Below are positions 2,644 to 46,389 of a DNA stretch of 64,000 nt, one piece after another. The stretch is taken from NCBI GenBank assembly GCA_903822185.1, contig CAIJOA010000030.1, positions 1 through 64,000 on the forward strand, in the 5' to 3' direction. Made by a program: the position numbers and the translations under genes. This DNA is from an uncultured Rhodospirillales bacterium. GTDB taxonomy: Bacteria; Pseudomonadota; Alphaproteobacteria; ATCC43930; CGMCC-115725. Positions within the stretch are counted from its first letter, which is position 1. Every line of letters starts with the position of its first letter. Under the pieces are notes generated by a model. The model did not search any database and was not told the origin of the DNA. It saw only the letters and a program-made list of their open reading frames with translations.

Positions 2644-2773
2644 CTTTATGTCTCCTCCTGAGCCTGCGACCTCTTGCGGGGAGTATCCTTCCCGATCCGG
2701 GTTACGGCAAATGAAATCAATGGTAGAGTAATCCCAGCGCCACTACGTAACCAGGCGTACCAGGGAGAAAACG

Positions 2774-3955
2774 ATGCGAGCAGGATGGGCGCTTTTCGTT
2801 GCGCTGTTGTGGGCAATCAATCCGGCGGCGGCTGAGGATAAGCCGCTGAAAGTCGGGATCATGCTCGAGCTGTCGGGCAATTTTTCCAGTTCCGGCAATT
2901 CGGCGCTGCACGGCTTTCAATATGTGCTGCAACAGCATGGCGGCAAGCTGGGCGGGCGCACCGTCGAGACGGTGATCGAGGACAATGCCGGCGATCCGGC
3001 GACGGCGATCGTCAAGGTCAAGAAGCTGGTCGAATCCGACAAGGTCGATGTGCTGTTCGGCCCGGTCAGCTCGGGCACCGGCGCTGCCGTCCGGAACTAT
3101 ATCATCGAGCAGAAAATCCCGACGATGATGGGATCGACCGTCGCCGAAGTGCTGGACGGCAAATATATGTTTCGCACCTCGTTCGACGGCAATGTCGATG
3201 GCTATCTGCAGGGCTATCTCGCCGGCGCCTCGGGCCACAAGAAGGCCGTGCTGCTGGCGCCCAACTATCTCGCCGGACAATCGGCCATCCAATATTTTGA
3301 AAAGGGATTCAACGACGCGGGCGGCACGGCGGTACAAAAACTGATGCCGCGCATCGGCGCGACCGATTACGGCTCGTTCATCGGGCAGATATCCCCCGAC
3401 GCCGATTGCGCCATCGTCTTCTTCCCCGGTGCGGACGCCGTGCGCTTCCTCAAGCAGTTCGCCGATTACGGCACCAAGCTGCCGTTATTCGGTTTCACCT
3501 CGACGGTCGATGAAACGCTGCTGCCCGCCGAAGGACAGGCGGCAGTCGGGTTCGTCGGCGCGTCGCAATATTTCTCGACGATCACGACGCCGGAAAATCT
3601 CGCCTTCCTCAAGGATTGGAATGCGGCGCATAAAGACTCACCGGAAAAGGCGAGCTGGCTGACGCTCTCGGGCTGGATCGCGGCGGCGACGCTGGATCAA
3701 GCGATCGAGCGCGTGCACGGCGATATCAGCGACACCGAAGCTTTCATGAAATCGCTGAAGCAGACCCACCTTAATACGCCGGCTGGGCCGTTCCGCTTCG
3801 ACGAGAATCAGAACCCGGTTTTGCCGCGTTACATCGTGCAGATTCGCGATGTGAAGGGCGAAGCCAAACCCGTCGTCATCGGCACTATTCCGGAATTCGT
3901 TCCGGTGATGAAGCCCCCGACATTGCCGGCCGATCTGGTCTGGCCGAAGGGCTGA
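2774..3955 (+). CDS. LIV-type ABC transporter substrate-binding protein
   Basis: A 393-residue type-1 periplasmic binding protein of the branched-chain amino acid/amide/aromatic family. An N-terminal signal peptide (about residues 1-20, ending AAA before EDKPLKVG) is followed by the typical GIMLELSG opening. The GGxxxRxxE-type segment and the DNAGDPATA motif are present. It faces livF-livG-livM-livH across a palindromic element and is the obvious binding protein for that transporter. Given the surrounding degradative genes, the ligand may be an aromatic acid rather than leucine. The ribosome binding site AGGGAGAAAACG directly abuts the ATG. Confidence 0.88.
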   Translation: MRAGWALFVALLWAINPAAAEDKPLKVGIMLELSGNFSSSGNSALHGFQYVLQQHGGKLGGRTVETVIEDNAGDPATAIVKVKKLVESDKVDVLFGPVSSGTGAAVRNYIIEQKIPTMMGSTVAEVLDGKYMFRTSFDGNVDGYLQGYLAGASGHKKAVLLAPNYLAGQSAIQYFEKGFNDAGGTAVQKLMPRIGATDYGSFIGQISPDADCAIVFFPGADAVRFLKQFADYGTKLPLFGFTSTVDETLLPAEGQAAVGFVGASQYFSTITTPENLAFLKDWNAAHKDSPEKASWLTLSGWIAAATLDQAIERVHGDISDTEAFMKSLKQTHLNTPAGPFRFDENQNPVLPRYIVQIRDVKGEAKPVVIGTIPEFVPVMKPPTLPADLVWPKG

Positions 3956-3970
3956 GAACGAGTCTGGAAT

Positions 3971-4071
3971 CCCCCTCACCCCAACCCTCTCCCCAAGGGG
4001 CGAGGGAGAATTATCTACCCTTCGCCCCTTGGGGAGAGGGAGGGACCCGCGTTAGCGGGAGGGTGAGGGGG
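3971..4071. repeat. CCCTCACCC-type intergenic palindrome, copy 1
   Basis: A nested inverted repeat: outer arms CCCCCTCACCC (3971-3981) and its complement (4061-4071), inner 19-bp perfect arms at 3985-4003 and 4022-4040, plus a small CCCGC/GCGGG hairpin near 4047-4060. It sits between converging genes and probably also ends transcription from both sides. Related elements occur at 10848-10990 and 47601-47739. Confidence 0.85.
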
Positions 4072-4085
4072 AATTCACACTCAGC

Positions 4086-4802
4086 TTAAACGCCGAGATA
4101 CGTCTCTTTGACGTCGTTATTCGCGGCAAGGTCACTCGGCAACCCGTCGAAGACGATCTTGCCCTTGTCCATGACATAGACATAGTCGGCGGATTCGATC
4201 GCGAAATTGATGTTCTGCTCGACCAGCAGGATCGCCATGCCGCCGTCGCGCAAACGGCGGATCAATTGCCGTAATTCTTCGACCACATGCGGCGACAGGC
4301 CCTCGGTCGGTTCATCCATCAGCAGCAGCCGACCGTTGCCGACCAGCGCACGCGCCACCGCCAGCATTTGCTGCTCGCCGCCCGATAGCGTCCCGGCGCT
4401 GTTGCGCATCCGCTCGCGCAGGCGCGGGAAAAGATCGAGCACGCTGTCGATCGTCCAGCCTTCGTTGCCGCCGGTCGCCGCGCGCCGCGCGATTTCCAGA
4501 TTTTCGCGAACACTCAGCGAGATGAAGATGCGCCGGCCCTGCGGCACCAAACCCATCCCGGCCTGCGCAATGCGATAAGACGTCCAGCGCGTTATGTCTT
4601 GGTTCTCGAAGACGATCTTGCCGCGGCGCGGCGGGGTGAAGGCGATAACGCTGCGGATCAGCGTCGTCTTGCCGACGCCGTTGCGGCCGAGGACGGCGGC
4701 GATAGTGCCCGGCTCGACCTTCAGCGACACGCCCTGCAGGACATAGCTTTCGCCGTAATAGGTATGGATATCATCGACGACGAGGGTGGGGTTGGCGCTC
4801 AT
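4086..4802 (-). CDS. livF: LIV-type ABC transporter ATP-binding protein LivF
   Basis: A 238-residue ABC ATPase. Walker A is GRNGVGKTT (39-47), the signature is LSGGEQQML and Walker B is LLLMDEPTEGLS. The short length and the C-terminal KGKIVFDG and YLGV segments are typical of LivF rather than LivG. Its ATG overlaps the livG stop codon (ATGA), so the two ATPases are translationally coupled. It is the last gene of a leftward operon that starts with a flavin monooxygenase and an amidohydrolase. Confidence 0.93.
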   Translation of the reverse strand: MSANPTLVVDDIHTYYGESYVLQGVSLKVEPGTIAAVLGRNGVGKTTLIRSVIAFTPPRRGKIVFENQDITRWTSYRIAQAGMGLVPQGRRIFISLSVRENLEIARRAATGGNEGWTIDSVLDLFPRLRERMRNSAGTLSGGEQQMLAVARALVGNGRLLLMDEPTEGLSPHVVEELRQLIRRLRDGGMAILLVEQNINFAIESADYVYVMDKGKIVFDGLPSDLAANNDVKETYLGV

Positions 4803-5569
4803 TGATGCGCCTCCGTGGTGCGTGCCGCGCCGCCGCTGGCATAGATTTTCTTCAAGTTGCCTTCCTGGCGGATTTCGTCGGGTGTCCCTTCGGCGACGAT
4901 CTTGCCTTGATCCATCGCGGTGATGCGGTCGGCGATCTTGAAGGCTGCGGCAAGGTCATGCTCGATCAGCAACACGGTGATGCTGCGGTCGAGATTGAGG
5001 ATGATATCGGTCGCGAGATGCGTCTCTGCCGCCGATAGACCGGCCATCGGTTCATCGAGCAACAAAAGCCGCGGTTCGCAGGCGAGGGCCATGACGATCT
5101 CAAGTTGGCGCTGCGTGCCGTAAGACAGATGCCGGACTTCTTCGCGGCGGATATCGGCTAACCGCCATTTCTCCAGCAGTGCCTCCGCCTTGGCGATAAC
5201 GTCGCGATAGCCCGACAACCGCCGCCAAAAGACGAAGTGCGACGGCGCCAAGGCCTGCACCGCGATGATCATGTTGTCGAGCACGGTCAGGTTGCGGAAC
5301 AGCGAGGTGATCTGAAACGTCCGCGCCAGACCCAGCGCGGCGCGGCGATGCAGCGCTTTGCTCGTGACATCCTGACCGAACAGCTTGATCGTGCCGCTGC
5401 TCGGCGCGATCTGGCCGTTGACGACGTTGAACAGCGTCGTCTTGCCAGCGCCGTTGGTGCCGATGATCGCGCGCCGCTCACCCGGCTCCAGCACCATCGT
5501 CACGTCGTTGAGGGCGTGAACGCCGCCGAAACTGCGCGACAGGTTTTTGACGGCAAGCGGCGCTGTCAC
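4799..5569 (-). CDS. livG: LIV-type ABC transporter ATP-binding protein LivG
   Basis: A 256-residue ABC ATPase. Walker A is GTNGAGKTT (37-45), the signature is LSYGTQRQ and Walker B is LLLLDEPMAGLS; the C-terminal EGTPDEI segment is typical of LivG. The frame is open further upstream to 5911, but that part lies inside livM and has no family similarity. I place the start at the GTG at 5569, which overlaps the livM stop as GTGA and gives the expected length and N-terminus (VTAPLAVKNLSRSFGG). Confidence 0.92.
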   Translation of the reverse strand: MTAPLAVKNLSRSFGGVHALNDVTMVLEPGERRAIIGTNGAGKTTLFNVVNGQIAPSSGTIKLFGQDVTSKALHRRAALGLARTFQITSLFRNLTVLDNMIIAVQALAPSHFVFWRRLSGYRDVIAKAEALLEKWRLADIRREEVRHLSYGTQRQLEIVMALACEPRLLLLDEPMAGLSAAETHLATDIILNLDRSITVLLIEHDLAAAFKIADRITAMDQGKIVAEGTPDEIRQEGNLKKIYASGGAARTTEAHQ

Positions 5570-6534
5570 GACGCGCTCCCGCGTTTCGGCGCGAAGAACT
5601 TGTCGCGGATGAAGACCAGCGCGCCCTGCGGCGCATAGAGCGCGATGCCGACATAGATCAGGCCGATGACGAACAGCCAGCGGTCTGTATAGGTGCTGAG
5701 CACATATTGCAGGATGACAAAGACGCCCGCGCCCAGCACCGGCCCAAACAGCGTGCCGGCCGCGCCGACAAGAATCATCATCAACACCTGCGCCGATACG
5801 GTGACGCTGAGGCTCGATGGGCTGACGAAGCTGTTGAGATACATGTACATCTCGCCGGCAACGGCAGCGAAGGACGCCGATACGATCGAGGCGACGTATT
5901 TGTAAGCCCAAACATTGTAGCCGAGCGCCCGCATCCGCATCTCGTTCTCACGAATCCCGCGCAACGCATAGCCGAAGGGCGATTTGACGAAGACGTACAG
6001 CGCGAGCGCCGAGACGACGAAGATAGCGAGGACGAAATAAAAGTAGTTGTGGGTGGAGGCGAAGGTCCAGGGAAACCAACTGCCGAGATTGGGACGCCGT
6101 ACACCGGGGAGGCCGTTATCGCCACCGGTCAATTCGGTCCAACTGACCGCGACGCTCCACAACACCTGCGAGAAGGCGAGGGTGATCATCAGGTAATAGG
6201 ATTTCGACGTGCGTAGCGCGAGAAGATGGAACAGCGCGGCAGCGACGGCGGCGGCGACGATACCGGCCGGCGCGGCCATGCCGAAAGGCCAGCCGAGCTT
6301 CAAGGAACAGATCGCTGAAACGTAAGCGCCCAAGCCGAAATAAGCGGCATGACCCAGCGACGGCATGCCGGTATAGCCGTGCAATACGTCGAGGCTCATG
6401 GCGAAAACGCCATAGATCAGCATCTGCGTCAGGAGGCCGGTGTCATAGGGCGAGAGGAAGTTGCCGAGCGCGCCGACGATGAGGATGAAGGCGAGCGCCC
6501 CGACGCTGCCGAGATGATTCTTCCGCATCGCCAC
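5566..6534 (-). CDS. livM: LIV-type ABC transporter permease LivM
   Basis: A 322-residue, strongly hydrophobic permease of the LivM type, with about eight to ten membrane segments and the conserved GYTGMPSLGHAAYFGLGAY region near residues 54-72. The first codon is GTG at 6534, one base after the livH stop; an ATG at 6528 is an alternative start. The gene is part of the livH-livM-livG-livF chain. Confidence 0.92.
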   Translation of the reverse strand: MAMRKNHLGSVGALAFILIVGALGNFLSPYDTGLLTQMLIYGVFAMSLDVLHGYTGMPSLGHAAYFGLGAYVSAICSLKLGWPFGMAAPAGIVAAAVAAALFHLLALRTSKSYYLMITLAFSQVLWSVAVSWTELTGGDNGLPGVRRPNLGSWFPWTFASTHNYFYFVLAIFVVSALALYVFVKSPFGYALRGIRENEMRMRALGYNVWAYKYVASIVSASFAAVAGEMYMYLNSFVSPSSLSVTVSAQVLMMILVGAAGTLFGPVLGAGVFVILQYVLSTYTDRWLFVIGLIYVGIALYAPQGALVFIRDKFFAPKRGSAS

Positions 6535-13091: not shown

Positions 13092-14126
13092 ATGCAATTC
13101 GGAATTTTCGACCATGTCGATCGCAATGATCGACCGCTCGCCAAGCAGCTCGATGAACGCATCGCGTACATCAACGCGGCCGAGGACGCGGGATTTTACG
13201 CCTATCACGTCGCCGAGCATCATTGCTCGCCGATCAACATGGTGCCGGTGCCGGGGCTGTTCCTAACGGCGGCGGCGCGGGAAACGAAACGCATTCGCCT
13301 CGGACCCCTGGTCTATCTCCTGACGCTTTATTCGCCGCTGCGCATGATCGAAGAGGTCGCGCTCCTCGATCATCTGTCGCATGGCCGGCTCGAGTTGGGT
13401 GTCGGACGTGGCGTCTCGCCGTTCGAATTGAACTATCACAATGTCAGCTACGAGGAATCACGCGATATCTTCGTCGAGGCTTGCGAGATATTGCGCAAAG
13501 GGCTGGTCAGTGATCGCCTGACGCACAAAGGGAAGCACTACACCTATACCGACGTGCCGATGGAGCTGAAATCGTTTCAGCAGCCGACGCCGCCCTTCTG
13601 GTATGCGGCGTCGAACCCCGACAGCGCCCGCTGGTCGGGCGAGCAAGGCTGTCACTTCGTGACGCTGGGGGCGGTCGCGTCCGCCCGCGCCAATATCGAC
13701 GGCTTCAAGGAAGGGCTGAAGAAACGCGGCGGGCCGGAAACGCCGAAGCCGGAGTTTTCCGGCAATACCGCGATCGGCGTGCATCGCCAGATGTTTGTCG
13801 CGGAAACCGATGCCGAGGCGAAGCGAATCGGCAAGGAGTTCCACGACCAGCATCATCACAGCCTCAGCAAGCTGCGCCGCGAGAACAAGGAATATCCCGG
13901 CTTCTCGCGTGGTGCGCCCAGCAGCTTCGAAAACGCGATCGCCGAACGAACGATCATTTACGGCTCGCCCGAAACCGTCCGCGCCGAGGTCGAACGGCAG
14001 ACGCACGAGCTTGGCATCAATTATTTCGTCGGTTCGTTCTTTTTCGGCAACATGAAGCTTGAGGACTCGCTGCGGTCGCTGAAACTCTTCACCACCGAGG
14101 TGATGCCGAAAGTCGCCGCCCTATGA
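13092..14126 (+). CDS. LLM class flavin-dependent oxidoreductase
   Basis: A 344-residue bacterial-luciferase-like monooxygenase using F420 or FMNH2. The N-terminus MQFGIFDH, the AEHHC segment and the GRLELGVGRG motif are typical. The frame is open from 13038, but the ATG at 13092 has an AAGGA site and the family N-terminus. It diverges from the cyclase/monooxygenase pair. Its stop overlaps the stop of the convergent DDAH-like gene. No partner flavin reductase is seen. Confidence 0.85.
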   Translation: MQFGIFDHVDRNDRPLAKQLDERIAYINAAEDAGFYAYHVAEHHCSPINMVPVPGLFLTAAARETKRIRLGPLVYLLTLYSPLRMIEEVALLDHLSHGRLELGVGRGVSPFELNYHNVSYEESRDIFVEACEILRKGLVSDRLTHKGKHYTYTDVPMELKSFQQPTPPFWYAASNPDSARWSGEQGCHFVTLGAVASARANIDGFKEGLKKRGGPETPKPEFSGNTAIGVHRQMFVAETDAEAKRIGKEFHDQHHHSLSKLRRENKEYPGFSRGAPSSFENAIAERTIIYGSPETVRAEVERQTHELGINYFVGSFFFGNMKLEDSLRSLKLFTTEVMPKVAAL

Positions 14127-15008
14127 CGCCTGCCGCAGCGCGGCTTTTTCCGAGCGGTGATCGAGCCGCAAGGTAAGACAGAAGGCCGAGCCGCCGCTGC
14201 GATGGAAAGTGCCCAGCGACGTCGCGATGACGCGATAGCCGCGCGTCTCCAACTGCCGGCGCAGGCCTATGCTGGCGCCTGACATCACGACCTGGTCGCC
14301 GATCCACACCGAATTGGCCGCGAAAATCGCCGCGTCCTTGGGCTTCAATTCGATGCGCTGTTCCGGCGTCGCCCGGTCATGAATCTGCTTCAACCCCTCG
14401 GCATTGAAGGCCGAGGGTACATACATGATCTCGCCATTCGGCAGTGCCGATAGCGCCGTGTCCATGTGATAGAAACGCGGATCGACCAGTTCGAGTGCTG
14501 CGGTTTCGAGCCCGAAGGTCTCGCTGACGACCTTTGCCGCCGCGAGGTCCGAACGCGGGCCGTAACCCATCCAGAACATCTGGCGCGATTTATCCCAGAC
14601 ACAGTCACCTGCGCCTTCGAGGCAGATGCCTTCGGGCATCGTCTTCACCGCGCGAAGAACCCCGGCGGCGATCAGGTCCTGAAAATGACCTTCAAACTGC
14701 GCCTCTTCGGGCTGGCGTTGGGCATAGCGAAAGTGTGCGACGAGGGCGGTGTCGTCCATGACGACGGCCGCATTGGCGGTAAAAACAAGATCGGGCAGCA
14801 CGGGTACCGGCGGCATCAGATCGATCGCCGCGCCGAGTTGCAACAGCCGTTGATGCAGCCGCTTCCATTCGCGATGCGCCTGACGCGTCAATGTCTGCGA
14901 AGCCGGATCCCATGCCGCCGGATTCATCCAGGGATTGATCGAGTAAGTGACGGCGAAATGCTCCGGCGCGCACATGAGAATGTGGGCGGCCTGGTGGCGT
15001 GTTTCCAT
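14121..15008 (-). CDS. DDAH/arginine deiminase-superfamily amidinohydrolase
   Basis: A 295-residue pentein-fold protein like dimethylarginine dimethylaminohydrolase. It carries LPDLVFTANA (71-80), LEGAGD (130-135), a catalytic H181 (FYHMDTALS) and the nucleophile C277 in GGSAFC. The family hydrolyses or transfers amidino groups of arginine-like substrates. I chose the ATG at 15008, which has a GGGGGA site; a start at 15044 would add 12 unconserved residues. It is probably transcribed alone or at the end of the hydantoinase operon, but a hairpin at 15156-15186 separates them. Confidence 0.8.
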   Translation of the reverse strand: METRHQAAHILMCAPEHFAVTYSINPWMNPAAWDPASQTLTRQAHREWKRLHQRLLQLGAAIDLMPPVPVLPDLVFTANAAVVMDDTALVAHFRYAQRQPEEAQFEGHFQDLIAAGVLRAVKTMPEGICLEGAGDCVWDKSRQMFWMGYGPRSDLAAAKVVSETFGLETAALELVDPRFYHMDTALSALPNGEIMYVPSAFNAEGLKQIHDRATPEQRIELKPKDAAIFAANSVWIGDQVVMSGASIGLRRQLETRGYRVIATSLGTFHRSGGSAFCLTLRLDHRSEKAALRQAS

Positions 15009-15136
15009 CTCTGTCCCCCTTACGGTCAAGGCAGTGAACGGCAATTTTGGTGATGATCGGGATCAAACGCGCCTTCCTACCGGGAAAGCGTGACAGCTTC
15101 GCGTCATGCAGTGAACGCGATGTAAGTGGGGAACAC

Positions 15137-15201: not shown

Positions 15202-16545
15202 TCAGGCCTGGCTACCGAGCAGCGTGGTAACACAGCCCTCAAAATCGAGCGCCTTGACCTGGGCGCTCAGCTTTTGTGTCGGGATCGGCCGCTTGAGATA
15301 GCGTGACATGGTGTCGAGCTTCGCCGTGACCGCGTCCCAACCCATCGGGTTTTCCGGATCGCCGAGCGGGTTCAACACTTCGCGCTCGATCGTCTTGCCG
15401 CCGACGGTGATGGTGGCGGTGCCGCCCCATTGCTTCGGATAAAGCTTGGTCAGCTTATCCGACCCGACAACCTCGACCCGATCCATGATGTGCAGGATCG
15501 CCGGATCGTTGTCGCGAATGGTCGCGCGTTCGATGTCGCAGAGTTCGTCGTGATGCAGCGCGCCGATGGCGAGCTGATAATGAATACCGCGCGATTCGGT
15601 CTTGGTCTTCGGCCGGTTTGTCCGGTCTATCATCGCGCGATACTGGTTCGGCACGGCGATGGTGATCTTTTCGATCTTGGCTGTATCGATCTTCTCTTCG
15701 CGCACGGCGAGGATGAAGGCTTCGGTGGCCGAGAGTCCCTGCCGCGAGCTGCAGTAAGGCTTGAAGCCAACGCGGTTGATCAGCAGTGGCGAACCCGGCC
15801 CGGCTTGCTCCGGCACTTTGATCGCCTCGGCGCTCCAGACTGGCGAGACGCGGCCCAGCACCGCCTCGTCACCCGACATGCCGCGCTCGGCGGCGGCAGC
15901 GGCGAGAAGACCGCTTTGGATCGCCGTCGCGAGGACGAACCAACGTGGCGCCGGTTCTTCTTCGGCACGGCCGGTGACGCCGGTGGCGCTGGTCGCGGCA
16001 ATCGCCATGGCGTTGCGGATCTGCTTTTCCGACAGGCCCATCACCCGGGCGGCGATGGCGGCGGCGGTGATGCCGCCCGTCAGGAAGGTCGTCCAGACGC
16101 CGCGATAGATGTTCTCGGCGCCGTTGGCGGCAAGGCCCAGCGTCAGCATAACCTGATAGCCGCCGACGATCGCTTCCAGCACCGTCTCGGGCGCGGCCTT
16201 GGTAATGTGACCCATCGCCAGCGCGACAGGGACGACGACCGAGGACGGCGTGACGCACGAACCGATATGGATGTCGTCGCATTCGGTCAGGCGGCTCGAC
16301 GTCACCAGCATCGCGGCCGCACAGCCGGGATGATCGAAGAAGCTCTTGGGCGGGGTCAGGAACGCCGCTCGCTTCAACGCATCATGCGTCGGCTTGATCT
16401 CCGAGGTCTCGGCGCCGGCCCAGGCACAGGCCAGCGCGTCGAAACCATGGAGCTTCACCTTGTCCAGTGTCGCGGCATCGATATCGCGGGCCTTGAGGCC
16501 GGAGAGTTGCGCCGCGAGGTCGGGCAGCAGCTTCTTATCAACCAC
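15202..16545 (-). CDS. MmgE/PrpD family protein
   Basis: A 447-residue protein of the MmgE/PrpD fold, which includes 2-methylcitrate dehydratase, cis-aconitate decarboxylase and many uncharacterised lyases. Recognisable are FDALACAWAGA near the N-terminus, the long helical region with GITAAAIAARVMGL, and the GFKPYCSSRQGL segment, a variant of the family's GxKxYPxC region. It overlaps the 3' end of the hydantoinase B gene by 8 bp and is the last gene of that operon. No prpB or prpC neighbours occur, so propionate metabolism is unlikely. A dehydratase or decarboxylase step on a hydantoinase product is the best guess. Confidence 0.85.
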   Translation of the reverse strand: MVDKKLLPDLAAQLSGLKARDIDAATLDKVKLHGFDALACAWAGAETSEIKPTHDALKRAAFLTPPKSFFDHPGCAAAMLVTSSRLTECDDIHIGSCVTPSSVVVPVALAMGHITKAAPETVLEAIVGGYQVMLTLGLAANGAENIYRGVWTTFLTGGITAAAIAARVMGLSEKQIRNAMAIAATSATGVTGRAEEEPAPRWFVLATAIQSGLLAAAAAERGMSGDEAVLGRVSPVWSAEAIKVPEQAGPGSPLLINRVGFKPYCSSRQGLSATEAFILAVREEKIDTAKIEKITIAVPNQYRAMIDRTNRPKTKTESRGIHYQLAIGALHHDELCDIERATIRDNDPAILHIMDRVEVVGSDKLTKLYPKQWGGTATITVGGKTIEREVLNPLGDPENPMGWDAVTAKLDTMSRYLKRPIPTQKLSAQVKALDFEGCVTTLLGSQA

Positions 16546-18289
16546 GCTGGGCTCTCAATTCCTGCCGCGCGGCCTTGGTCGCATCGGCGTCGATCTGAAT
16601 CGCGTCGAGCCCGGTCTTGCCGGTGCTCTTGGTCACGATGCCGTATTCGCTGCGCGCGGCATCGACCGACACCATGCCGTCGCGGATATCGTCCAGCACG
16701 CGTTCCGGCTCGCGGTCCAGCGGATCGCCCCAACCACCGCCGCCGGCGCTGCGGATGATGACACGCGATTCTGTCGGCACCTGGTACCAGTTCGCGTTGA
16801 CCGACTTCCAATCGTTCTCGCCGTTCTTCTGGACGAGACGATCCGGCTTGCCGCCGGTCTTGCCGCCCCAAAGGCCCCACGGCGGAACGCGGTGGCGTCC
16901 GGTCTGGGTGATGTTCCAACGGCCGGCGACGAGGTTGCGCACTTTCACGTCGAGGCCGAGGCCGCCACGGAACTGACCCGCGCCGGCTGAATCGGTGCGG
17001 AGGCCACGCTGCTCGACAACGATCGGGAAGCGTTGCTCCAATGATTCGATCGGTCCGTTGCGCACGTCGCCCTGGCAGATCGTGCAGGAAGCCGACGGAC
17101 CATCTTCGGTCGGTCGTCCGCCCCAGCCACCGCCCTCGGTGCTCTGCACCACAAAGCGCTTGCCGTTATTATCGACGCCGAAGAAGGTCAAGTTGTCGCC
17201 CATCGCGCCCTTATGCGCGGCGGGGGTCATGGATTTGCGGGCCGGCGCCATCGCGGCGAGGATCGCGTCGATGACGCTCGGCAAGGCCGTACTCCATCCG
17301 GCCATCGGCGCGGGGAACTGCGCCATCATGAAGCTGCCTTCCGGCAGGATCACCTTCAGCGCCTTGAACGAGCCTTCGTTCACCGGGTCGATCGGCGAGG
17401 TCAGCGCCTTGTAAGCAATGTAAGGCGCGGCGAGCGTACGACCGTTGATGCCGCTGTTCCGCTGCTTCGAGCAACCGGACAGATCGATCGTCATGTCGCT
17501 GCCTTCGACGATGACTTTGGCATGGATGCGGATCGGGCCGTCGGTGGCCGAGGCGCTGTCGTCGAACTCGGTCTCGAATTCATAGGTGCCATCCTGGAAC
17601 TCGGCGATCACCTGGCGGCAGAGCGCTTCGCTTTCGGAGAAAATGCGTTGGATGCATTCCTCGACGGTCGCTTCGCCGTATTTCGAGAACAATTCTTCCA
17701 TGCGCTTGAGACCGAGATTGCAGGCCGTGATCTGCGCATCGAGATCGCCCATCGACGATTCCGGATAACGGATATTGTCCGAGATCATAGCAAGGACAGT
17801 CTCATTCGGCTTGCCCGCTTCGTAGATCTTGAGCTGGTTGAATTGGAGACCTTCCAGCCACGGATCGGAGGCCGACGAACCGGCGCCGAAGCCCGTGCTG
17901 TAGCCGCCGACATCGATCCAATGCGCGCGGATGATGGTGAAGCCGAACAGCTCGCCCTTCCAGAAGAACGGCGTATAGACGCACATGTTGTTGAGATGCT
18001 GGCCGCAGACGCGCTGATGATTCATCAGGATCACGTCGCCGGGGACGAACTTCTTGATGCGCTCGACGCCGTCGCGAATGACGACACCCATATCGGCGAG
18101 GAAGTGGCTGACGCCGCCACCGTTCTGAGCGAGGAGGTTGCCCTCCTTGTCGAGGATGGCGCAGCTATAGTCGCCGACCTCATAGATCATCATGTTGTAG
18201 GAAGTGCGTTTCAGCACATGCGACATCTCGTCGGCGATGGCCGGCAGTGCGCTACGCAGAACTTCGACGGTAATCGGATCGGCGGCCAT
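16538..18289 (-). CDS. hydantoinase B/oxoprolinase family protein
   Basis: A 583-residue HyuB-type subunit, the usual length. Typical segments are YSCAILDKEGNLLAQNGG, DVILMNHQRVCGQHLNNM, a GEGGWGGR-like EGGGWGGRP, and a GGGGWGDPLDR-like C-terminus (AGGGGWGDPLDR). With HyuA it forms ATP-dependent hydantoinase, 5-oxoprolinase, caprolactamase or acetone carboxylase-like enzymes. It starts one base after the HyuA stop, which is strong evidence for a joint complex. Confidence 0.9.
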   Translation of the reverse strand: MAADPITVEVLRSALPAIADEMSHVLKRTSYNMMIYEVGDYSCAILDKEGNLLAQNGGGVSHFLADMGVVIRDGVERIKKFVPGDVILMNHQRVCGQHLNNMCVYTPFFWKGELFGFTIIRAHWIDVGGYSTGFGAGSSASDPWLEGLQFNQLKIYEAGKPNETVLAMISDNIRYPESSMGDLDAQITACNLGLKRMEELFSKYGEATVEECIQRIFSESEALCRQVIAEFQDGTYEFETEFDDSASATDGPIRIHAKVIVEGSDMTIDLSGCSKQRNSGINGRTLAAPYIAYKALTSPIDPVNEGSFKALKVILPEGSFMMAQFPAPMAGWSTALPSVIDAILAAMAPARKSMTPAAHKGAMGDNLTFFGVDNNGKRFVVQSTEGGGWGGRPTEDGPSASCTICQGDVRNGPIESLEQRFPIVVEQRGLRTDSAGAGQFRGGLGLDVKVRNLVAGRWNITQTGRHRVPPWGLWGGKTGGKPDRLVQKNGENDWKSVNANWYQVPTESRVIIRSAGGGGWGDPLDREPERVLDDIRDGMVSVDAARSEYGIVTKSTGKTGLDAIQIDADATKAARQELRAQRG

Positions 18290-18290
18290 A

Positions 18291-20342
18291 TCAGTTGCCT
18301 CCTATGGTGATGATGATTTCGCCGGTCGGGGCGACGGTGGCTTCGTCGCCTTCCAGCAGCAGGGCGGTGGTGGCGCTTTCCTCGATGATCGCCGGGCCTT
18401 TGACGATGGCGCCGGGGGCGAGGGCATCGCGCTGATAGATCGCGCAGCGCGTCGGCTTGGTCGCATCGGTCAGGAACACGTCGCGCGTGGTCGAAGGCGT
18501 CGCGGTAGTGCCGACGGCGGGCGGATGGAATTCCATCTTGGCTCGCTCGCCGATGGCGTTGGCGCGGATGTTCACGATCTCGACCGGACGATGCTCGGCG
18601 TTCTGGCCGTAATGGCGCAGATGCAGCGCGTCGAAGCGGCGGCGGATGCCGTCACGATCGGCCTTCGTTATGTCTTCATAGGAAATCGGCGTGTTGAGAT
18701 AGAACTCCTGGCCGACATAGCGGATATCGACCGAGAGATTGACCTGCTGCTGCGCCGGGGCGACGCTTTCCGAGGCCAGCAGTTCTTTCCCGTCTTTCAG
18801 GAACATGTCGCAGATGCTGCGGATGGCTTCGAAATCCGCTTCGGCCATGCTACGCGCGTGGGTCTGAACGTAATCGTGCCGGATGTCGGTCATCAGCATG
18901 CCGACCGCCGAGAAATGCGCCGGCAGCACGGGCAGGATGACGCGCGGGATCGACAGCTCGCGCGCGATCAGCGGCGCGTGCAGCCCGCCATTGCCGCCCG
19001 AGGCGACCATGACGAAATCGCGCGGATCGTAGCCGCGTTCGATCGAGACGCCGCGCACCGCGAGGGTCATGTGCGCGATCGCGATCTTGAGCATGCCCAG
19101 CGCGGCTTCCTCGACACTGAGGCCCAGTTTGTCGGCAAGTTTTCCTTTGAGGGCGGCGCGCGACGCTTCCTTGTCGAGGCTCATGTCGCCGCCGAGGAAG
19201 TTCGCGCCGTTGATCCGGCCAAGGGTGAGGTTGGCGTCGGTGATCGTCGGTTCGGTGCCGCCGGCGCGATAACACACCGGGCCGGGGCTGGCGCCCGCGC
19301 TCTTGGGACCTACCTTCATCGCGCCGACGCTGTCGATCCAGCCGATGCTGCCGCCGCCGGCGCCGACTTCGACGACGTCGATGACCGGCGACATCACCGG
19401 ATGGCCTTCGGCGTAACCGCCGACGTAATAGCCTTCGGCGGTCGATGGCTTGCCGTCGCGGATGACGCTGGCCTTCGCTGTCGTGCCGCCCATGTCGAAA
19501 GCGATGACTTGCGGAAAGCCCAGCCGCAGGCCGATCTCGGCCGAGGCGTTGATGCCGCCGACCGGGCCTGATTCCATCAAACCGACCGGCGCGCGGCCGG
19601 CCACGCCGACCGAGGTCACGCCGCCGTTCGACTGCATGATCAGCAAGGTGCCGGGGAACTTCTTGGCCTCAAGGCGCTGTTCGAGGCGCTTCAGATAGGT
19701 CGAAACGCGCGGGCCGATATAGGAGTTCACGATCGTCGTCGAGGTGCGTTCGTACTCACGGTACTGGCGCAGGATTTCATAGCTCAGCGAGACATAAGCA
19801 TTGGGGAAGGCCTTGCGCAGCGCCTGGCCCATCATCTGCTCGTGCGTCGGATCGATGTAGGAATGAAGGAAGCAGACGGCGATCGATTCGGGTTCGAGGG
19901 CCGCGACCTGTTTGCAGACATTGGCGATCTCGGCCTCGCTCAGCGGCAGGATGGACTGGCCCTGCGCGCCCATGCGTTCGTCGGCCTCGATGATCATGCC
20001 GCGGCGCACGAGAGGCGTCGCGCGCTTGAAGAAGACATTGTAGGCCTCGGGCCGGTTGCCGCGGCCGATCAGATAGGCGTCGCGCGCGCCCTTGGTCGTG
20101 ACGAGGACTGTCTTGGCGCCGGACTGCTCGATCAGCGTGTTGATCGCGATCGTCGCGCCGTGGACGAAAGTCTCGCACGCGCCCAGATCGATATTCGCCT
20201 TGTCGAGGCAGTTCTGAATGCCGAGGGTGAATTCTTCGGGCGTTGTGGAGCTCTTGGCGTGCCGCATTTCACCGGTTTCGTCGTTGAAATAAACGAGGTC
20301 GGTAAAAGTGCCCCCGATATCGAGTGCAACATGAGCTCCCAT
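18291..20342 (-). CDS. hydantoinase A/oxoprolinase family protein
   Basis: A 683-residue HyuA-type ATP-binding subunit. The N-terminal DIGGTFTDLV (8-17) and the later AFDMGGTTAKASVI are the actin-like phosphate motifs, and VEVGAGGGSIGWID is the third family signature. The subunit phosphorylates the amide carbonyl so that the ring can be hydrolysed. It is the first gene of a leftward operon (HyuA, HyuB, MmgE/PrpD), with an AAGGA ribosome binding site. It diverges from two M24-fold genes across 170 bp. Confidence 0.91.
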   Translation of the reverse strand: MGAHVALDIGGTFTDLVYFNDETGEMRHAKSSTTPEEFTLGIQNCLDKANIDLGACETFVHGATIAINTLIEQSGAKTVLVTTKGARDAYLIGRGNRPEAYNVFFKRATPLVRRGMIIEADERMGAQGQSILPLSEAEIANVCKQVAALEPESIAVCFLHSYIDPTHEQMMGQALRKAFPNAYVSLSYEILRQYREYERTSTTIVNSYIGPRVSTYLKRLEQRLEAKKFPGTLLIMQSNGGVTSVGVAGRAPVGLMESGPVGGINASAEIGLRLGFPQVIAFDMGGTTAKASVIRDGKPSTAEGYYVGGYAEGHPVMSPVIDVVEVGAGGGSIGWIDSVGAMKVGPKSAGASPGPVCYRAGGTEPTITDANLTLGRINGANFLGGDMSLDKEASRAALKGKLADKLGLSVEEAALGMLKIAIAHMTLAVRGVSIERGYDPRDFVMVASGGNGGLHAPLIARELSIPRVILPVLPAHFSAVGMLMTDIRHDYVQTHARSMAEADFEAIRSICDMFLKDGKELLASESVAPAQQQVNLSVDIRYVGQEFYLNTPISYEDITKADRDGIRRRFDALHLRHYGQNAEHRPVEIVNIRANAIGERAKMEFHPPAVGTTATPSTTRDVFLTDATKPTRCAIYQRDALAPGAIVKGPAIIEESATTALLLEGDEATVAPTGEIIITIGGN

Positions 20343-20512: not shown

Positions 20513-21619
20513 ATGGACATCAATGGCAGGCAGCAGGCTGCCTTGCAGCTCATGGAACGCGAAGGCGTCGATGTGTTGTTGGTGGCGCCGAACGAACTCT
20601 CCCGCGTCGATACGATTTTCCACCTGACCGGCTATCGTCCGGTGGGCGAAAGCCTTTGCGTCCTATCGCGCACCGGCGCGCCGACGCTGGTCGTGACCCC
20701 GGAATGGGAAGCCGAGCGCGCCAAGGCGCGGGCCAAGGGCTGGACCGTCCAGACCGCCGCGGATTTGCCCGACGCGATCAGCGCGTTGTTCCCGAAGGGA
20801 TTGCCCAGCGGCAAGACCGGGACCGTTAACCTTGGCAAACTACCGATGGCGATCAGCAAGCGTCTTACGGAATTCGCCGGTGGTGACGTGAAGAAGCTCG
20901 ACCAGAAGCTCGAAGCCGCGTTGATGCCCAAGACCAGCATCGAGATCGAACATGCCCGCCGCGCCACCGCGATCGGCGAAAAAGCTTTCGAGCAGTTGTT
21001 GAAGATCGCCCATGAAGGCATGGCCGAATGCGATCTCGCCGTGCAGTTGAAGCTCTATATGGAGGATCTCGGCGCCGACGATAATTTCTTTCTGCTGACC
21101 GCATCGGAACATAACCGCGCGGTGCAGCCGTCCAGCGGCCGCAAGCTCAAGAAGGGCGACATCATCCTCGCCGAAATGACCCCGACCTATCACGGCCAGC
21201 TTTCGCAGATCTGCCGCACGGCGGTGATGGGCCCGATCGATCCCAAGCTCGAGGAGAAATACAATCTCGTCGTGCGGGCGATGATGGCGGGCATCAACAC
21301 GATCCGTCCGGGCCAGCGCATGGGCGATGTGGCCAAGGCGATCGACGACGTGCTGACGGCCGAAGGCTATGGCGAATATTGCCATCCGCCGCATATCCGC
21401 CGCCGCGGTCATGGCCTCGGCCATGGCTCGAACGCGCCGGGCGATGTCGCGCCGTCGAACGACATCATCCTGCAGGAAGACATGGTCTTCGTCGTTCACC
21501 CGAACCAGTACCTGCCCGAAACCGGTTATCTCCTCTGCGGCGAGCCGGTGCGCGTCACCGCGACGGGTTTTGAGAAACTAAGCAAACGTACCGCCTGGCT
21601 TGCCAGCGTTCCCCTCTGA
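20513..21619 (+). CDS. M24-fold protein lacking the metal ligands (creatinase-like)
   Basis: A 368-residue pita-bread-fold protein with a creatinase/prolidase N-domain (1-140) and an M24 C-domain. The canonical dinuclear metal ligands are altered: AEM (E221) where Asp is expected, SQIC (Q232) in place of the second Asp, VVHP (H329) in place of the EP Glu, and LLCGEP (C342) in place of the last Glu. The central His region GHGLGH (299-304) is kept. Creatinase is a metal-free member of this fold, so C-N bond hydrolysis is plausible while metallopeptidase activity is not. AGGTGAGGAG precedes the ATG at 20513. Confidence 0.78.
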   Translation: MDINGRQQAALQLMEREGVDVLLVAPNELSRVDTIFHLTGYRPVGESLCVLSRTGAPTLVVTPEWEAERAKARAKGWTVQTAADLPDAISALFPKGLPSGKTGTVNLGKLPMAISKRLTEFAGGDVKKLDQKLEAALMPKTSIEIEHARRATAIGEKAFEQLLKIAHEGMAECDLAVQLKLYMEDLGADDNFFLLTASEHNRAVQPSSGRKLKKGDIILAEMTPTYHGQLSQICRTAVMGPIDPKLEEKYNLVVRAMMAGINTIRPGQRMGDVAKAIDDVLTAEGYGEYCHPPHIRRRGHGLGHGSNAPGDVAPSNDIILQEDMVFVVHPNQYLPETGYLLCGEPVRVTATGFEKLSKRTAWLASVPL

Positions 21620-21639
21620 GCCAGCGAGGATAAATCATC

Positions 21640-22758
21640 ATGCGTGTCACACAGCCTGCGGTTCTCGTCGGTCCTTACGATTGGGATGAAGCGGTCATTC
21701 CGCGCTCGGAATTCGAAGGACGCATCAAAGAAGCCTGGGCGGCGCTCAAAGGCGAAAAATTCGCCGGCATCATCGTCAATGGCAACAAGATGGATAACGG
21801 GGCGCTCGCGTTCCTGACCAACTTCACGCCGAAGATCGAAGCCGGTTATGCGTTGGTCTCGCCCGACGGCGCGGTGCGTCTCCACAGCGCGGGCAGCCCG
21901 CATATGATGGTCAACGCGCAGCGCCTGACCTGGGTCGATGCGGTGAAACCGATCCGCGATATCGGCAAGCATATCGCCGAATGGGCCGAGACGCTGGGCG
22001 AAGGCCCGTTGGGTCTTTGGGCGACGCCAACGATGCCGGGCGATCTCCTGCCGCGCATCCAGGCTGCCTTGCCGTCACGGCCGATCAAAGATGTCAGCGC
22101 GACGCTCGATGCGCTGATGCGGCCAAAATCGGCGGTGGCGAAGCGTGTTGCGCGCGATGCCGCCGCGATCCTCACCAAAGGTACGGCGGCGCTGCGGCAA
22201 TCTTTCGAGAACAATGTCAGCGCGCGTGAATCCGTCGTCGCCGCCGAGAAGGCCGCGGCGGCAGCCGGTGCGTCCGACATCCGCATGTTGGCCAGCATCA
22301 GCAAAGGCGGCACGCCGACCGCGATCGATTACCCCGAAGGCGGCAAGTTCGATCCGCTGCTGGTCTATATGGCCGTGCGTTATGGCGGCTATTGGGCCGA
22401 CGGTGTTTTGACTCTGTCGTCGGTTCCCGGCGATACGGTGAAGAACACCCAGGCGGCGTTGCAGGCGATGCTCGCCACGGCGCGCGCTGGTGTCTCGGTC
22501 AGCGACTTGAAGAAAGCAGCGCAGGAAAGGCTCGGCGGGCTCGCGGTTCATCCGGCGGCGAAGAGGGCCGTGACCGGCGTGGGTCTCACCCTTGAAGAAA
22601 CCGAAGCCGAACCGACCGGCGTCAGCCGCCTCGAAGAAGGCCGCATCTATTCGCTGCGCGCCGGTGCGCAAAAGGGCGAAGGTGATGCCGCACTGTTCTC
22701 GGCGCTGGTCGAGGTCAAAGCCGGCGGCGTCGATATTCTCTGGTCGTCGCTGACTTAA
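21640..22758 (+). CDS. divergent M24-fold protein, second of a tandem pair
   Basis: A 372-residue protein that follows the first M24-fold gene by 20 bp. The N-domain is creatinase-like (FAGIIVNGNK, NGALAFLTNF, SPHMMVNAQR). The C-domain keeps the length and strand pattern, but I find none of the five M24 metal ligands and no GHGIG-type His motif. It may be a non-catalytic partner of the upstream protein. The close pairing and similar length suggest a heterodimer formed after duplication, which is inference. Confidence 0.7.
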   Translation: MRVTQPAVLVGPYDWDEAVIPRSEFEGRIKEAWAALKGEKFAGIIVNGNKMDNGALAFLTNFTPKIEAGYALVSPDGAVRLHSAGSPHMMVNAQRLTWVDAVKPIRDIGKHIAEWAETLGEGPLGLWATPTMPGDLLPRIQAALPSRPIKDVSATLDALMRPKSAVAKRVARDAAAILTKGTAALRQSFENNVSARESVVAAEKAAAAAGASDIRMLASISKGGTPTAIDYPEGGKFDPLLVYMAVRYGGYWADGVLTLSSVPGDTVKNTQAALQAMLATARAGVSVSDLKKAAQERLGGLAVHPAAKRAVTGVGLTLEETEAEPTGVSRLEEGRIYSLRAGAQKGEGDAALFSALVEVKAGGVDILWSSLT

Positions 22759-22770
22759 CGCTTTTTATTC

Positions 22771-22838
22771 TTCGTCACACCCGCGAAAGCGGGGGTCCAT
22801 GGCAGCAAATGGATTCCCGCTTTCGCGGGAATGACGAA
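22771..22838. repeat. GTCATTCCCGCGAAAGCGGG-type palindrome, copy 1
   Basis: Two inverted arms: 22771-22800, ending in GGGGGTCCAT, and 22809-22838, starting ATGGATTCCCGC. Each arm contains its own CCCGC-GAAA-GCGGG hairpin. The same two-arm element is present in reverse orientation at 46325-46389. Such elements are common and abundant in alphaproteobacterial intergenic DNA. Confidence 0.85.
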
Positions 22839-22861: not shown

Positions 22862-24289
22862 ATGACCACCCAGTCAGCCGATATCATCGTCGTCGGTGGC
22901 GGCCTCGCCGGTTTTTCGGCGGCGATCACCGCGGCGGAAGCGGGCCTCAAAACCATCCTGATCGAGCAGGGCGTCGAAGAACGCTATCTCTGCAATTCGC
23001 GCATCTGTATTGGTGTGCTGCAGGTCGCGCTGCTCGACATGCGCAGCAGCACCGAAACGCTGGCCAAGGCGATCGACGATTCAACGCGGCGCTATGTCGA
23101 TCCGGCTTTGCGCGACAAGTTTGCGTCCGAGGCCGCACCGTCTTTCCGCTGGCTCGCCACGCAAGGCATCCGCACCATCAATGCCGGCACGCAGACGCAC
23201 AATCTCGTGACGTTAGCGCCGCCGGTGCCGCGCCAGCCGGGGTTGCATTGGCAGGGTCGCGCCGGCGACGTGATGCTGGGGCAGCTTGTCGCTAAACTGA
23301 AGGCGCTGGGCGGTACGCTGACGCGCGGCATGCAGGCGCGCGAATTGATCATGGCCGACGGACATTGCGCCGGCGTCACGGCGGTCAGCGGCAACGAGAC
23401 GCATCGTTTCGAATCACGCGCCGTGGTGCTGGCTGATGGCGGCTTCCAGGCGAATACCGATCTGCTGAAGCGTTTCATCAGCAAGCATCCCGAACGGCTA
23501 CTGCAACGGAATGCGAAATCGGGCCGTGGCTCCGGCTTGATGATGGCCAAGGCGGTCGGGGCGAAACTCACCGACATGGAATGTTTCTACGGTCATATCC
23601 AATCGCGTGATGCGATGGATAATCCGGAGCTGTGGCCGTATCCGACGATGGACTTCCCCGTAGGGGCCGGTATCGCCGTCGATCAAAGCGGCAAGCGTTT
23701 CGCCGATGAAGGCCTCGGCGGCGTCGCTATGGCCAACGCCATCGCGCGGCTCGACGATCCGTCGGGCGCTGTGGCGATCTTCGATCAGAACATCTGGGAA
23801 CTCAGTGGCAAGACCTACGTCATGTCCGCCAATCCGTTCGTCAAAGTGGCGGGCGGCACCATTTACAAGGCCGATACCATCGAAGCGCTGGCCCAGGCAG
23901 CCGGTCTTCCCGTGGATGCAACGGCCTCGACCGTCGCCGGTTACAATCGCGCGCTCACCGACAAAACGCTGCCGCAACAAACGCCGCGCCGGACCGATGA
24001 TTACGTTCATGCCTGGGGCTCGGCGCCGGTGCCGATCGTCAAGGCGCCGTTCTATGCCGTGCCGCTTTGCGCCGGCATCACCTACACGATGGGTGGCTTG
24101 AAGGTCGATCCACAGGCGCGGGTGCAGCATCAAAACGGCGGCCCGATCGAAGGGCTCTATGCGGCGGGCGGCACCATCGGTGGCCTCGAAGGTGGTCCTT
24201 ACACCGGCTATACCGGCGGTCTCGCCAAAGCCCTTGTCTGGGGGCGCATCGCCGGCGGTGACGCCGCCCGTCTCGTCAAAGGAAGCTGA
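22862..24289 (+). CDS. FAD-dependent oxidoreductase, fumarate reductase/tricarballylate dehydrogenase-like
   Basis: A 475-residue flavoprotein of the fumarate reductase/succinate dehydrogenase flavoprotein superfamily. The FAD motif is VVGGGLAGFSAA (11-22), an RxxADEG-like FADEGLGG segment follows in the middle, and TYTMGGLKVDPQARV with GLYAAGGTIGG closes the FAD domain. The frame opens at 22838, but the ATG at 22862 has an AGGAA site and the family N-terminus. It probably oxidises or reduces a C-C bond of a carboxylic acid intermediate. It lies between the M24 pair and an amidohydrolase on the same strand. Confidence 0.84.
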   Translation: MTTQSADIIVVGGGLAGFSAAITAAEAGLKTILIEQGVEERYLCNSRICIGVLQVALLDMRSSTETLAKAIDDSTRRYVDPALRDKFASEAAPSFRWLATQGIRTINAGTQTHNLVTLAPPVPRQPGLHWQGRAGDVMLGQLVAKLKALGGTLTRGMQARELIMADGHCAGVTAVSGNETHRFESRAVVLADGGFQANTDLLKRFISKHPERLLQRNAKSGRGSGLMMAKAVGAKLTDMECFYGHIQSRDAMDNPELWPYPTMDFPVGAGIAVDQSGKRFADEGLGGVAMANAIARLDDPSGAVAIFDQNIWELSGKTYVMSANPFVKVAGGTIYKADTIEALAQAAGLPVDATASTVAGYNRALTDKTLPQQTPRRTDDYVHAWGSAPVPIVKAPFYAVPLCAGITYTMGGLKVDPQARVQHQNGGPIEGLYAAGGTIGGLEGGPYTGYTGGLAKALVWGRIAGGDAARLVKGS

Positions 24290-24291
24290 CC

Positions 24292-25218
24292 ATGGCTGCG
24301 CCGCATCGCATCGACGTTCATCACCACATCACCCCGCCCAGCTATAGTGCGGCCGCCGCGGCGATCATCGAAGGCAATCCGCCGCGGATGAACTGGTCGC
24401 TGGCGAAGTCGCTCGAGGATATGGAACAAGGCGGCGTCGCAACGGCGATCATCTCGCTGCCGCATCCGGTGACGATCTGGCCGAAACCACAGGACAAACA
24501 GCGCGCGCTGGCGCGCGATTGGAACGAATACGTTGCGACGATGGGACGCGATCATCCGGGCAAGTTCGGGCTCTTCGCGACCCTGCCGATGCTCGATATC
24601 GATGGCGCGCTCAAGGAACTCGAATATTCGCTCGATGTGCTGAAGGCCGACGGCATCAACATGATGACCAATATCGGCGACAAGTGGCTGGGTGATCCTT
24701 ACTTCCATCCGATCTTCGAAGAACTGCATCGCCGCAAGGCCGTGGTTTATACGCATCCGATCGCGCCGAGTTGCCTTCACGACTGCCTGCCGGGCGTCAA
24801 TGATTCGATTGTCGAATTCGGTTCCGACACGACCCGCACCATCGCTAGCCTGATCTTCAGCGGTGCGGCAGCGAAATACAAAGACATCGATTTCATCTTC
24901 TCGCATGCCGGCGGCACGATGCCGTTCCTGGTCGAACGGTTCGAACGCGCGCCCGGCCGCTGGGCCCCCGCCGTCGAAGGCGGCGCGGTGCAGCATCTGA
25001 AACGCTTCTATTACGACACGGCCCAGGCCGCGCATAAATGGGCGCTGCTGAGCCTCACCGAACTGGTCGAAAGCACCCAGATCATGTTCGGCACCGACTT
25101 CCCCTATCGCACGTCGAGCGAGACGGCGCAGGGTTTAATCGATTTCGGTTTCTCGGAAGCGGATTTGCGCGCGATTGATTGTGGCAATGCGAAGCGGCTG
25201 TTGCCGAACTGGCGATAA
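24292..25218 (+). CDS. amidohydrolase family protein, ACMSD-like
   Basis: A 308-residue TIM-barrel protein of the amidohydrolase 2/ACMSD family with a complete metal site: DVHHHI with H10 and H12, H155 (YTHPIAPS), H205 (FSHAGGTMPF) and D269 (FGTDFPYR). ACMSD-type enzymes decarboxylate amino- or hydroxy-muconate products or hydrolyse lactones. It starts 2 bp after the flavoprotein stop, so the two are co-translated. Unlike the 7489-8481 paralogue, the N-terminal HxH is intact. Confidence 0.85.
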   Translation: MAAPHRIDVHHHITPPSYSAAAAAIIEGNPPRMNWSLAKSLEDMEQGGVATAIISLPHPVTIWPKPQDKQRALARDWNEYVATMGRDHPGKFGLFATLPMLDIDGALKELEYSLDVLKADGINMMTNIGDKWLGDPYFHPIFEELHRRKAVVYTHPIAPSCLHDCLPGVNDSIVEFGSDTTRTIASLIFSGAAAKYKDIDFIFSHAGGTMPFLVERFERAPGRWAPAVEGGAVQHLKRFYYDTAQAAHKWALLSLTELVESTQIMFGTDFPYRTSSETAQGLIDFGFSEADLRAIDCGNAKRLLPNWR

Positions 25219-33441: not shown

Positions 33442-33537
33442 TGCGGCATTGCTCGTCGCCCGACGACATGCCGTACGTCTTCTAGGCGTTTCCTCCCTAA
33501 ACTTAGGGCCGTGCTTTTGCACGGCCCTTTTCTTTTT
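33442..33537 (+). ncRNA. candidate small regulatory RNA with anti-Shine-Dalgarno loop (AbcR-like)
   Basis: A transcription unit of about 96 nt with a promoter and an intrinsic terminator but no plausible ORF. Visible structure is a 5' hairpin (TCGTC/GACGA, 33453-33466), then GTTT-CCTCCCT-AAAC (33488-33502), which can display the anti-Shine-Dalgarno sequence CCTCCCT in a 7-base loop, then the terminator stem. This architecture resembles alphaproteobacterial trans-acting small RNAs such as AbcR (alpha-r15), which silence ABC transporter binding-protein mRNAs; the family match is from memory and unverified. The remaining intergenic DNA (33287-33406) is AT-rich and I see no other gene in it. Confidence 0.55.
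33506..33537 (+). terminator. strong intrinsic terminator of the small RNA
   Basis: A 9-bp perfect stem GGGCCGTGC/GCACGGCCC with a TTTT loop is followed by TTTTCTTTTT (33528-33537). It is the clearest rho-independent terminator in the window and lies 220 bp past the CoA-transferase stop, too far to be only that gene's terminator. Confidence 0.85.
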
Positions 33538-33591
33538 GCGCTTCGATCTTCCCGTGAGGAAGGCGATGCGCCCCCAGATAGGCGAGAAGAG

Positions 33592-35643: not shown

Positions 35644-35718
35644 GGGCGCGTAGCTCAGCGGGAGAGCACTACCTTGACATGGTAGGGGTCACAGGTTCAA
35701 TCCCTGTCGCGCCCACCA
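35644..35718 (+). tRNA. tRNA-Val(GAC)
   Basis: A complete cloverleaf: acceptor GGGCGCG/CGCGCCC, D-arm GCTC/GAGC, anticodon stem CTACC/GGTAG with loop TTGACAT (anticodon GAC), T-arm ACAGG/CCTGT with loop TTCAATC, and an encoded CCA at 35716-35718. It reads valine GUC codons. It ends 13 bp before the convergent threonine ammonia-lyase gene. Confidence 0.97.
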
Positions 35719-46324: not shown

Positions 46325-46389
46325 CCCGTCATTCCCGCGAAAGCGGGAATCCATCGACATGGACCCCCGCTTTCGCAGGGGTGACGAAG
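46325..46389. repeat. GTCATTCCCGCGAAAGCGGG-type palindrome, copy 2, inside the glc operon
   Basis: The same two-arm element as at 22771-22838, in the opposite orientation: GTCATTCCCGC...AATCCAT, a 4-base spacer, then ATGGACCCCCGC...GGTGACGAA. It fills most of the 101-bp gap between glcD and glcE. Confidence 0.85.

Follow-up and report, generated by a model that had tools for sequence, protein, structure and literature searches.

The locus and its genes

Two genes encoding diverged proteins of the M24 (pita-bread) fold, here termed M24-A and M24-B, lie in tandem on the same strand, in different reading frames and 20 nt apart, within the window, that is, the whole stretch of 64,000 nucleotides from an uncultured Rhodospirillales bacterium that was analysed. 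The pair diverges from an operon with the order HyuA-HyuB-MmgE/PrpD-arginine dihydrolase-like protein. The features are as follows, with the basis of each assignment in brackets where one applies.

14121..15044, minus strand: arginine dihydrolase/DDAH-like amidinohydrolase at the end of the Hyu operon, common only to the near relative L091 (Pfam, neighbourhood)
15202..16545, minus strand: MmgE/PrpD family protein, homologues in 26/56 loci, typically right after M24-B (Pfam)
16538..18289, minus strand: HyuB of the sub-family with motif GQHLNN/AHWxDxGG, homologues in 38/56 loci (Pfam, alignment)
18291..20342, minus strand: HyuA (hydantoinase/oxoprolinase A), divergent, homologues flanking the pair in 36/56 loci (Pfam)
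20513..21619, plus strand: M24-A, non-canonical M24 protein, proposed catalytic subunit (PF00557, fold model, alignments)
21640..22758, plus strand: M24-B, diverged M24-fold partner with no conserved active site; its proposed role is that of a non-catalytic or substrate-binding subunit
22768..22837, no strand: palindromic repeat element lying between the M24-B and flavoprotein genes
22862..24289, plus strand: FAD_binding_2 flavoprotein, recurring only in the near relative L091 (Pfam, neighbourhood)
24292..25218, plus strand: Amidohydro_2 protein, homologues in 4 other loci (Pfam, neighbourhood)

Counts of loci come from scanning genome contigs with an M24-A profile, which returned 58 loci, mostly from metagenome-assembled genomes, 56 of them with a full-length M24-A. 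The two without one (L093 and L095) were excluded from the 56, while the M24-B of L093 was kept in the M24-B alignment; a duplicate (L049, of L048) was dropped, and the M24-A alignment therefore consists of the window and 55 loci, or 56 rows. The M24-B alignment omits L062, which has no M24-B, and the B genes of the second type found at L073 and L077.

M24-A has 368 amino acids and M24-B 372. Both score above the Pfam cut-off of 23 bits for PF00557 (114.8 and 35.1 bits, respectively), and M24-A is also above the cut-off for PF01321, whereas none of the curated NCBIfam models was reached by either protein. M24 proteins of this kind thus match only the general peptidase model, and it is likely that they are annotated as peptidases. 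AlphaFold2 models built from alignments of 56 M24-A and 56 M24-B sequences (mean pLDDT 94.3 and 92.3, pTM 0.89 and 0.91) predict the full two-domain prolidase/creatinase fold over the entire length of both proteins; the top fold match of M24-A is 3q6d (VIA Z 35.1, rmsd 3.4, 350 aligned) and that of M24-B is 9kw9 (VIA Z 33.0, rmsd 3.2, 337 aligned).

The flavoprotein and the amidohydrolase, which the first-pass annotation had noted after the pair, fall outside the conserved unit, because the former recurs only in L091 and the latter in 4 loci; both were rejected as members, being not conserved and separated from M24-B by the repeat element. Copies of this palindromic repeat lie at 22780-22829 and 46334-46379, and its 14-base arm is found 101 times in the host genome (53 forward, 48 reverse) compared to once for a reversed control. 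Elsewhere in the window, an Rfam suhB/mmgR small RNA was detected at 33470-33542 with 61.8 bits; a tRNA lies nearby, at 35644-35715.

Residues at the metal-ligand positions

The ligand columns of M24-A were read from an HMMER alignment to the Pyrococcus furiosus prolidase 1pv9, whose metal ligands we take to be D209, D220, H284, E313 and E327, and a second check was made in a joint alignment with the canonical methionine aminopeptidase of the host genome. At these columns M24-A carries E221 for D209, Q232 for D220, H300 for H284 (His kept), H329 for E313 and G343 for E327, and the Asp, Asp, His, Glu, Glu set of M24 metalloenzymes is replaced by E, Q, H, H, G in M24-A and by Y, D, T, R, S in the window M24-B. 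E221, Q232 and H329, already placed at ligand positions in the first reading of the sequence, agree with the 1pv9 alignment; C342, placed there as well, was off by one, since both alignments give G343 as the fifth position, and the retained canonical His, H300, had been overlooked. The view that both proteins have lost the metal site stands in so far as the canonical five-ligand set is missing in both, but M24-A, which has invariant metal-capable side chains at four of the five positions (E221, Q232, H300, H329), may still bind a metal. Likewise, M24-B had been credited with none of the five ligands, and this holds for four of its residues in the alignments (Y243, T312, R340, S354) but not for D254, which occupies the second Asp position, in a column that over 56 rows has E in 28, D in 17, S in 5 and other residues in the remaining few.

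Conservation differs sharply between the two proteins. In all 56 rows of M24-A, E221, P224, Q232, C234, R235, R298, H300, H329, N331, C342 and G343 are invariant, although H329, C342 and G343 were partly selected for, because the loci were chosen by scan patterns covering M24-A residues 324-331 or 338-345. In a pattern-free set of 13 M24-A proteins from profile searches or second pairs, which includes the window and 5 others that are also in the pattern scan, E221, Q232, C234, H300 and H329 are present in 13/13 and G343 in 12/12, while C342 is replaced by Leu in the second-type A described below. M24-B has invariant residues elsewhere (G11, P21, R28, D213, R215), whereas its ligand columns are variable over the 56 rows. 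The invariance of E221, Q232, C234, H300 and H329, a small and concrete set of residues, indicates that the M24-A site has been replaced rather than decayed. Since polar residues are fixed in M24-A and none is fixed at the ligand columns of M24-B, we infer that M24-A is catalytic and M24-B is not. The conserved residues argue that M24-A is an active enzyme. On the other hand, E221 and Q232 alone need not imply metal binding, because two other M24 proteins of the host genome (L008, L009) carry Glu and Gln at ligand positions one and two but lack the His residues.

Prolidase and aminopeptidase P (M24B) share with the pair the full-length two-domain creatinase/prolidase fold, PF00557, PF01321 (in M24-A) and fold similarity of Z up to 35. 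They differ in that four of the five metal ligands are replaced in M24-A and one acidic position is left in M24-B, and in that they are homodimers, whereas two different putative subunits are encoded here.

Distribution and descent of the pair

The 56 loci come from five phyla (47 Pseudomonadota, 4 Actinomycetota, 3 Bacillota, 1 Acidobacteriota and 1 Chloroflexota), and in 55 of them a full-length M24-A is accompanied by M24-B, on the same strand and always downstream. The gap between the two genes is -4 to +47 nt in 53 loci, 205 nt in one and 4353 nt in one, the last being Paenibacillus validus (L055), where transporter genes stand between A and B in one operon; the single M24-A without a partner (L062) has no M24-B within 10 kb downstream. 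A profile search of 41 genomes that used no scan pattern yielded 11 M24-A genes, with B adjacent in 10 and one at a contig end. Paenibacillus validus NBRC 15382 and Caulobacter sp. S45 are strains known by name that have the pair. Absence of the pairing from related genomes had been named beforehand as the outcome that would overturn the idea of a heteromer; instead, where M24-A is present the pairing is nearly always kept.

The pair is rare. Of 289 genomes taken across the class, at least 1 had an M24-A match at E <= 1e-60; among 41 relatives, 3 had one at E <= 1e-40. Absence in the class searches is to be read softly, as these scored the best 6 candidates per genome for A and B, and the best 4 for HyuB. 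Matches to B near E 1e-20 in other genomes of the class are taken to be ordinary M24 proteins rather than B, and a search of plasmids gave no match. The host genome itself carries three pairs, on contigs C30 (the window), C26 and C48. The C26 pair is 47% (A) and 41% (B) identical to that of the window, with a B shorter by about 25 residues, and the C48 pair (L129:10350-12536) is of a more distant, second type.

A tree of 54 rows, built by a quick method and with long branches among its outside rows, recovers M24-A as one clade (SH-aLRT 98) and M24-B as another (SH-aLRT 99). When the second-type pairs are included, the A side (94) and the B side (97) remain separate, and the B side (M24-B and second-type B) stands apart from M24-A, second-type A and other M24 proteins. 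Across 55 pairs the distance matrices of A and B correlate with r=0.93, while the highest value among permutations was 0.14; linked common descent alone could produce such a correlation. The phylogeny of neighbouring gene pairs, proposed in the first-pass annotation as a check, gives separate and mirrored clades for A and B. Chance or local accident as the origin of the pair was rejected, because of the 55/56 pairing and the mirrored trees, and the A/B pairing is, from these genomes and trees, ancient and nearly obligate. Nor are the genes decayed: among the 20 closest pairs purifying selection is evident, with dN/dS of 0.055-0.277 for A and 0.080-0.382 for B, which led us to reject decay.

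Taken together, the central idea of the first-pass annotation holds once its residues are corrected: the pair is a real, conserved two-subunit version of a known fold, and it is apparently undescribed so far; a literature search, in which subscription journals were thinly covered and sources were accessible in part, found no description of such a non-canonical M24 A/B pair.

Association with HyuA/HyuB and a proposed function

The link to a hydantoinase operon, first noticed at this locus, has proved real and general. HyuA and HyuB both occur near M24-A in 35 of the 56 loci, either of them in 39 and neither in 17, some of which are cut short, and all three partners including MmgE/PrpD are present in 23. 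The usual gene order is HyuA-HyuB-A-B-PrpD, and in 17/56 loci HyuB ends no more than 87 nt upstream of M24-A. With 11 HyuB genes spread over the 4.27 Mb of the host genome, the chance expectation of finding one within 10 kb is, by simple arithmetic, about 5%. The HyuAB step is not obligatory, however, because HyuA and HyuB are missing at the 17 loci and no HyuAB was found in the stretch analysed around the C26 pair.

By Pfam, HyuA and HyuB of the window belong with the HyuAB/CapAB ATP-dependent lactamases, although their scores of 502 and 263 bits remain below the caprolactamase NCBIfam equivalog cut-offs of 1000. In caprolactamase, the metal of CapB is held by Asp41, His99, Asp102 and His124 (PMC8453981). 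The HyuB proteins beside the pairs depart from this at one position: in 38 of 39 rows, the window among them, their GQHLNN motif has Asn for CapB Asp102, the remaining row being a fragment, whereas the equivalents of D41, H99 and H124 are kept, as judged by motif spacing. Among the 11 HyuB proteins of the host genome, two have HLPD or HVPD, five GQHLNN and four GSHLNH, the last with His at the D102 position. One GSHLNH protein adjoins HyuA and another non-canonical M24 protein at L014 (M24 at 4839-6116, minus strand; HyuA at 2718-4835; HyuB at 988-2745; order M24-HyuA-HyuB). Unusual M24 and unusual HyuB proteins thus go together, since GQHLNN accompanies the pairs and GSHLNH the M24 of L014. 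This other M24 type, also present on host contig C39 (L015:4183-5409), has 399 aa, a His at a Glu ligand position and a CHGQGY motif. The second-type pair on C48 is flanked on either side by GQHLNN HyuB genes, at distances of about 5 and 3 kb.

Other neighbours are less constant. A weakly NMT1-like, binding-protein-like gene, exemplified by L041:9021-9998 and found in 18 other loci, often lies between HyuB and M24-A and presumably resembles 4,5-dihydroxyphthalate decarboxylase; a neighbour cluster without a Pfam match (L039, L077) is likewise a weak NMT1-like binding protein. XDH-like genes occur near the pair in 10/56 loci; L079, L085 and L090 have aromatic-acid transporters, and L078 has a UbiD-type protein. 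These XDH-like, transporter and UbiD neighbours hint that the pathway substrate may be a heteroaromatic acid, for example a hydroxylated N-heteroaromatic acid, although no neighbour gene fixes the substrate and a literature search on one hydroxylated N-heteroaromatic acid pathway gave nothing useful.

The reading that we prefer, and which we regard as evenly poised between right and wrong, is that M24-A and M24-B are two subunits of one heteromeric hydrolase, in which A alone would be catalytic and would hydrolyse a C-N bond of the HyuAB product. Under this proposal, both proteins would go back to an ancient duplication of a homodimeric M24 protein, after which the sole active site would have been rebuilt in M24-A from E221, Q232, C234, H300 and H329, while M24-B would have given up catalysis to serve as dimer partner and might contribute substrate-binding residues across the interface, as the subunits of the creatinase homodimer do. 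HyuA and HyuB would open a cyclic amide or imide in an ATP-dependent step of a catabolic pathway, A/B would most likely cleave a C-N bond, be it of an amide, a ureide or an amidine, in the product of ring opening, and the MmgE/PrpD enzyme would act after the A/B step. The heteromeric complex, catalysis by A only, C-N hydrolysis, pathway order and metal are what we infer from the genes and their conservation. With regard to the chemistry, a single metal ion on H300, H329 and E221, with Q232 or C234 nearby, is the first choice, and it may be given a little less than an even chance; the side chain of E221 exceeds that of the original Asp by one carbon. A metal-free mechanism with Cys234, His and Glu may be tentatively retained as the second and less probable choice.

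An alternative, which we judge unlikely, is that the pair is an accessory part of HyuAB, which would activate the ring with ATP, and that M24-A/B, within the same multi-subunit complex, would complete the hydrolysis or gate it. The special HyuB sub-family beside the pairs, the second sub-family beside the M24 of L014 and the 17 loci with closely adjoining HyuB and M24-A genes are consistent with such an arrangement, but the same number of loci has neither HyuA nor HyuB, a GQHLNN HyuB on host contig C17 has no M24 match on that contig, and homologues such as CapAB work without M24 proteins (PMC8453981).

It is quite unlikely that both proteins are pseudoenzymes, in which a metal-free M24 fold would act as a binding, sensing or chaperone module. 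Besides the missing canonical site in both, this idea can draw on non-catalytic M24 domains such as that of Spt16, which is among the fold matches here, and on PID-5 of Caenorhabditis elegans, a diverged M24 protein that is predicted to heterodimerise with APP-1 (PMC10377022). However, the polar pocket residues of M24-A are fully fixed over 56 rows and five phyla, as they would be in an enzyme, and a binding module need not conserve exactly Glu, Gln, Cys, His and His at such positions. PID-5/APP-1 likewise represents a diverged M24 protein proposed to pair with an active one, but it differs from M24-A/B in being eukaryotic and involved in RNA silencing, and in that APP-1 keeps the canonical dinuclear site.

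Creatinase, a metal-free M24 enzyme to which the pair had been likened, and the ectoine hydrolase EutD/DoeA (6twk, 6yo9) are among the best structural matches, with Z 32.9 for creatinase and 34.4 for EutD against M24-A, and Z 32.4 (rmsd 2.5, 343 aligned) for creatinase 7yto against M24-B. The likeness to creatinase (1chm, 7yto) holds for the fold, and creatinase H324 corresponds to M24-A H300, the canonical dinuclear site being missing in both, but it does not extend to the catalytic residues: H232 is V204 (V 51, G 3, A 1, L 1 over 56 rows, never His), E358 is H329 and E262 is C234, leaving M24-A without the catalytic His232 and Glu358 pair. EutD/DoeA has a single subunit type, and we know of no HyuAB partner for it; against its NCBIfam model TIGR02993, the score is 38.3 bits versus a cut-off of 613. 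EutD/DoeA has the M24 fold and hydrolyses a C-N bond within a catabolic pathway (PMC5924519). That the pair is simply a metal-free hydrolase of the ordinary creatinase or EutD kind with a duplicated partner is very unlikely, and such a mechanism was rejected on the residues (V204, H329) and the TIGR02993 score.

To return to the heteromeric hydrolase that we prefer, a conserved M24 enzyme of two subunits, with an active site that is both different and fixed and with a link to an unusual HyuAB, would represent a new catalytic design for the pita-bread fold and would point to an uncharacterised pathway for the degradation of nitrogen compounds in five phyla. A broader version, in which M24-A/B would join HyuA and the Asn-variant HyuB in a multi-enzyme machine for the breakdown of amides or imides and the rebuilt M24 site would be either a 2-His-1-Glu mononuclear metal centre or a Cys/His/Glu nucleophile, is doubtful; to our knowledge, neither kind of rebuilt site is used by a characterised M24 enzyme. 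If it were true, several M24/HyuAB combinations would have co-diversified within one genome. Finally, at L073:10167-12336 and L077:13391-15691 two M24 A/B pairs that differ in type face each other, and HyuB-HyuA comes after the second.
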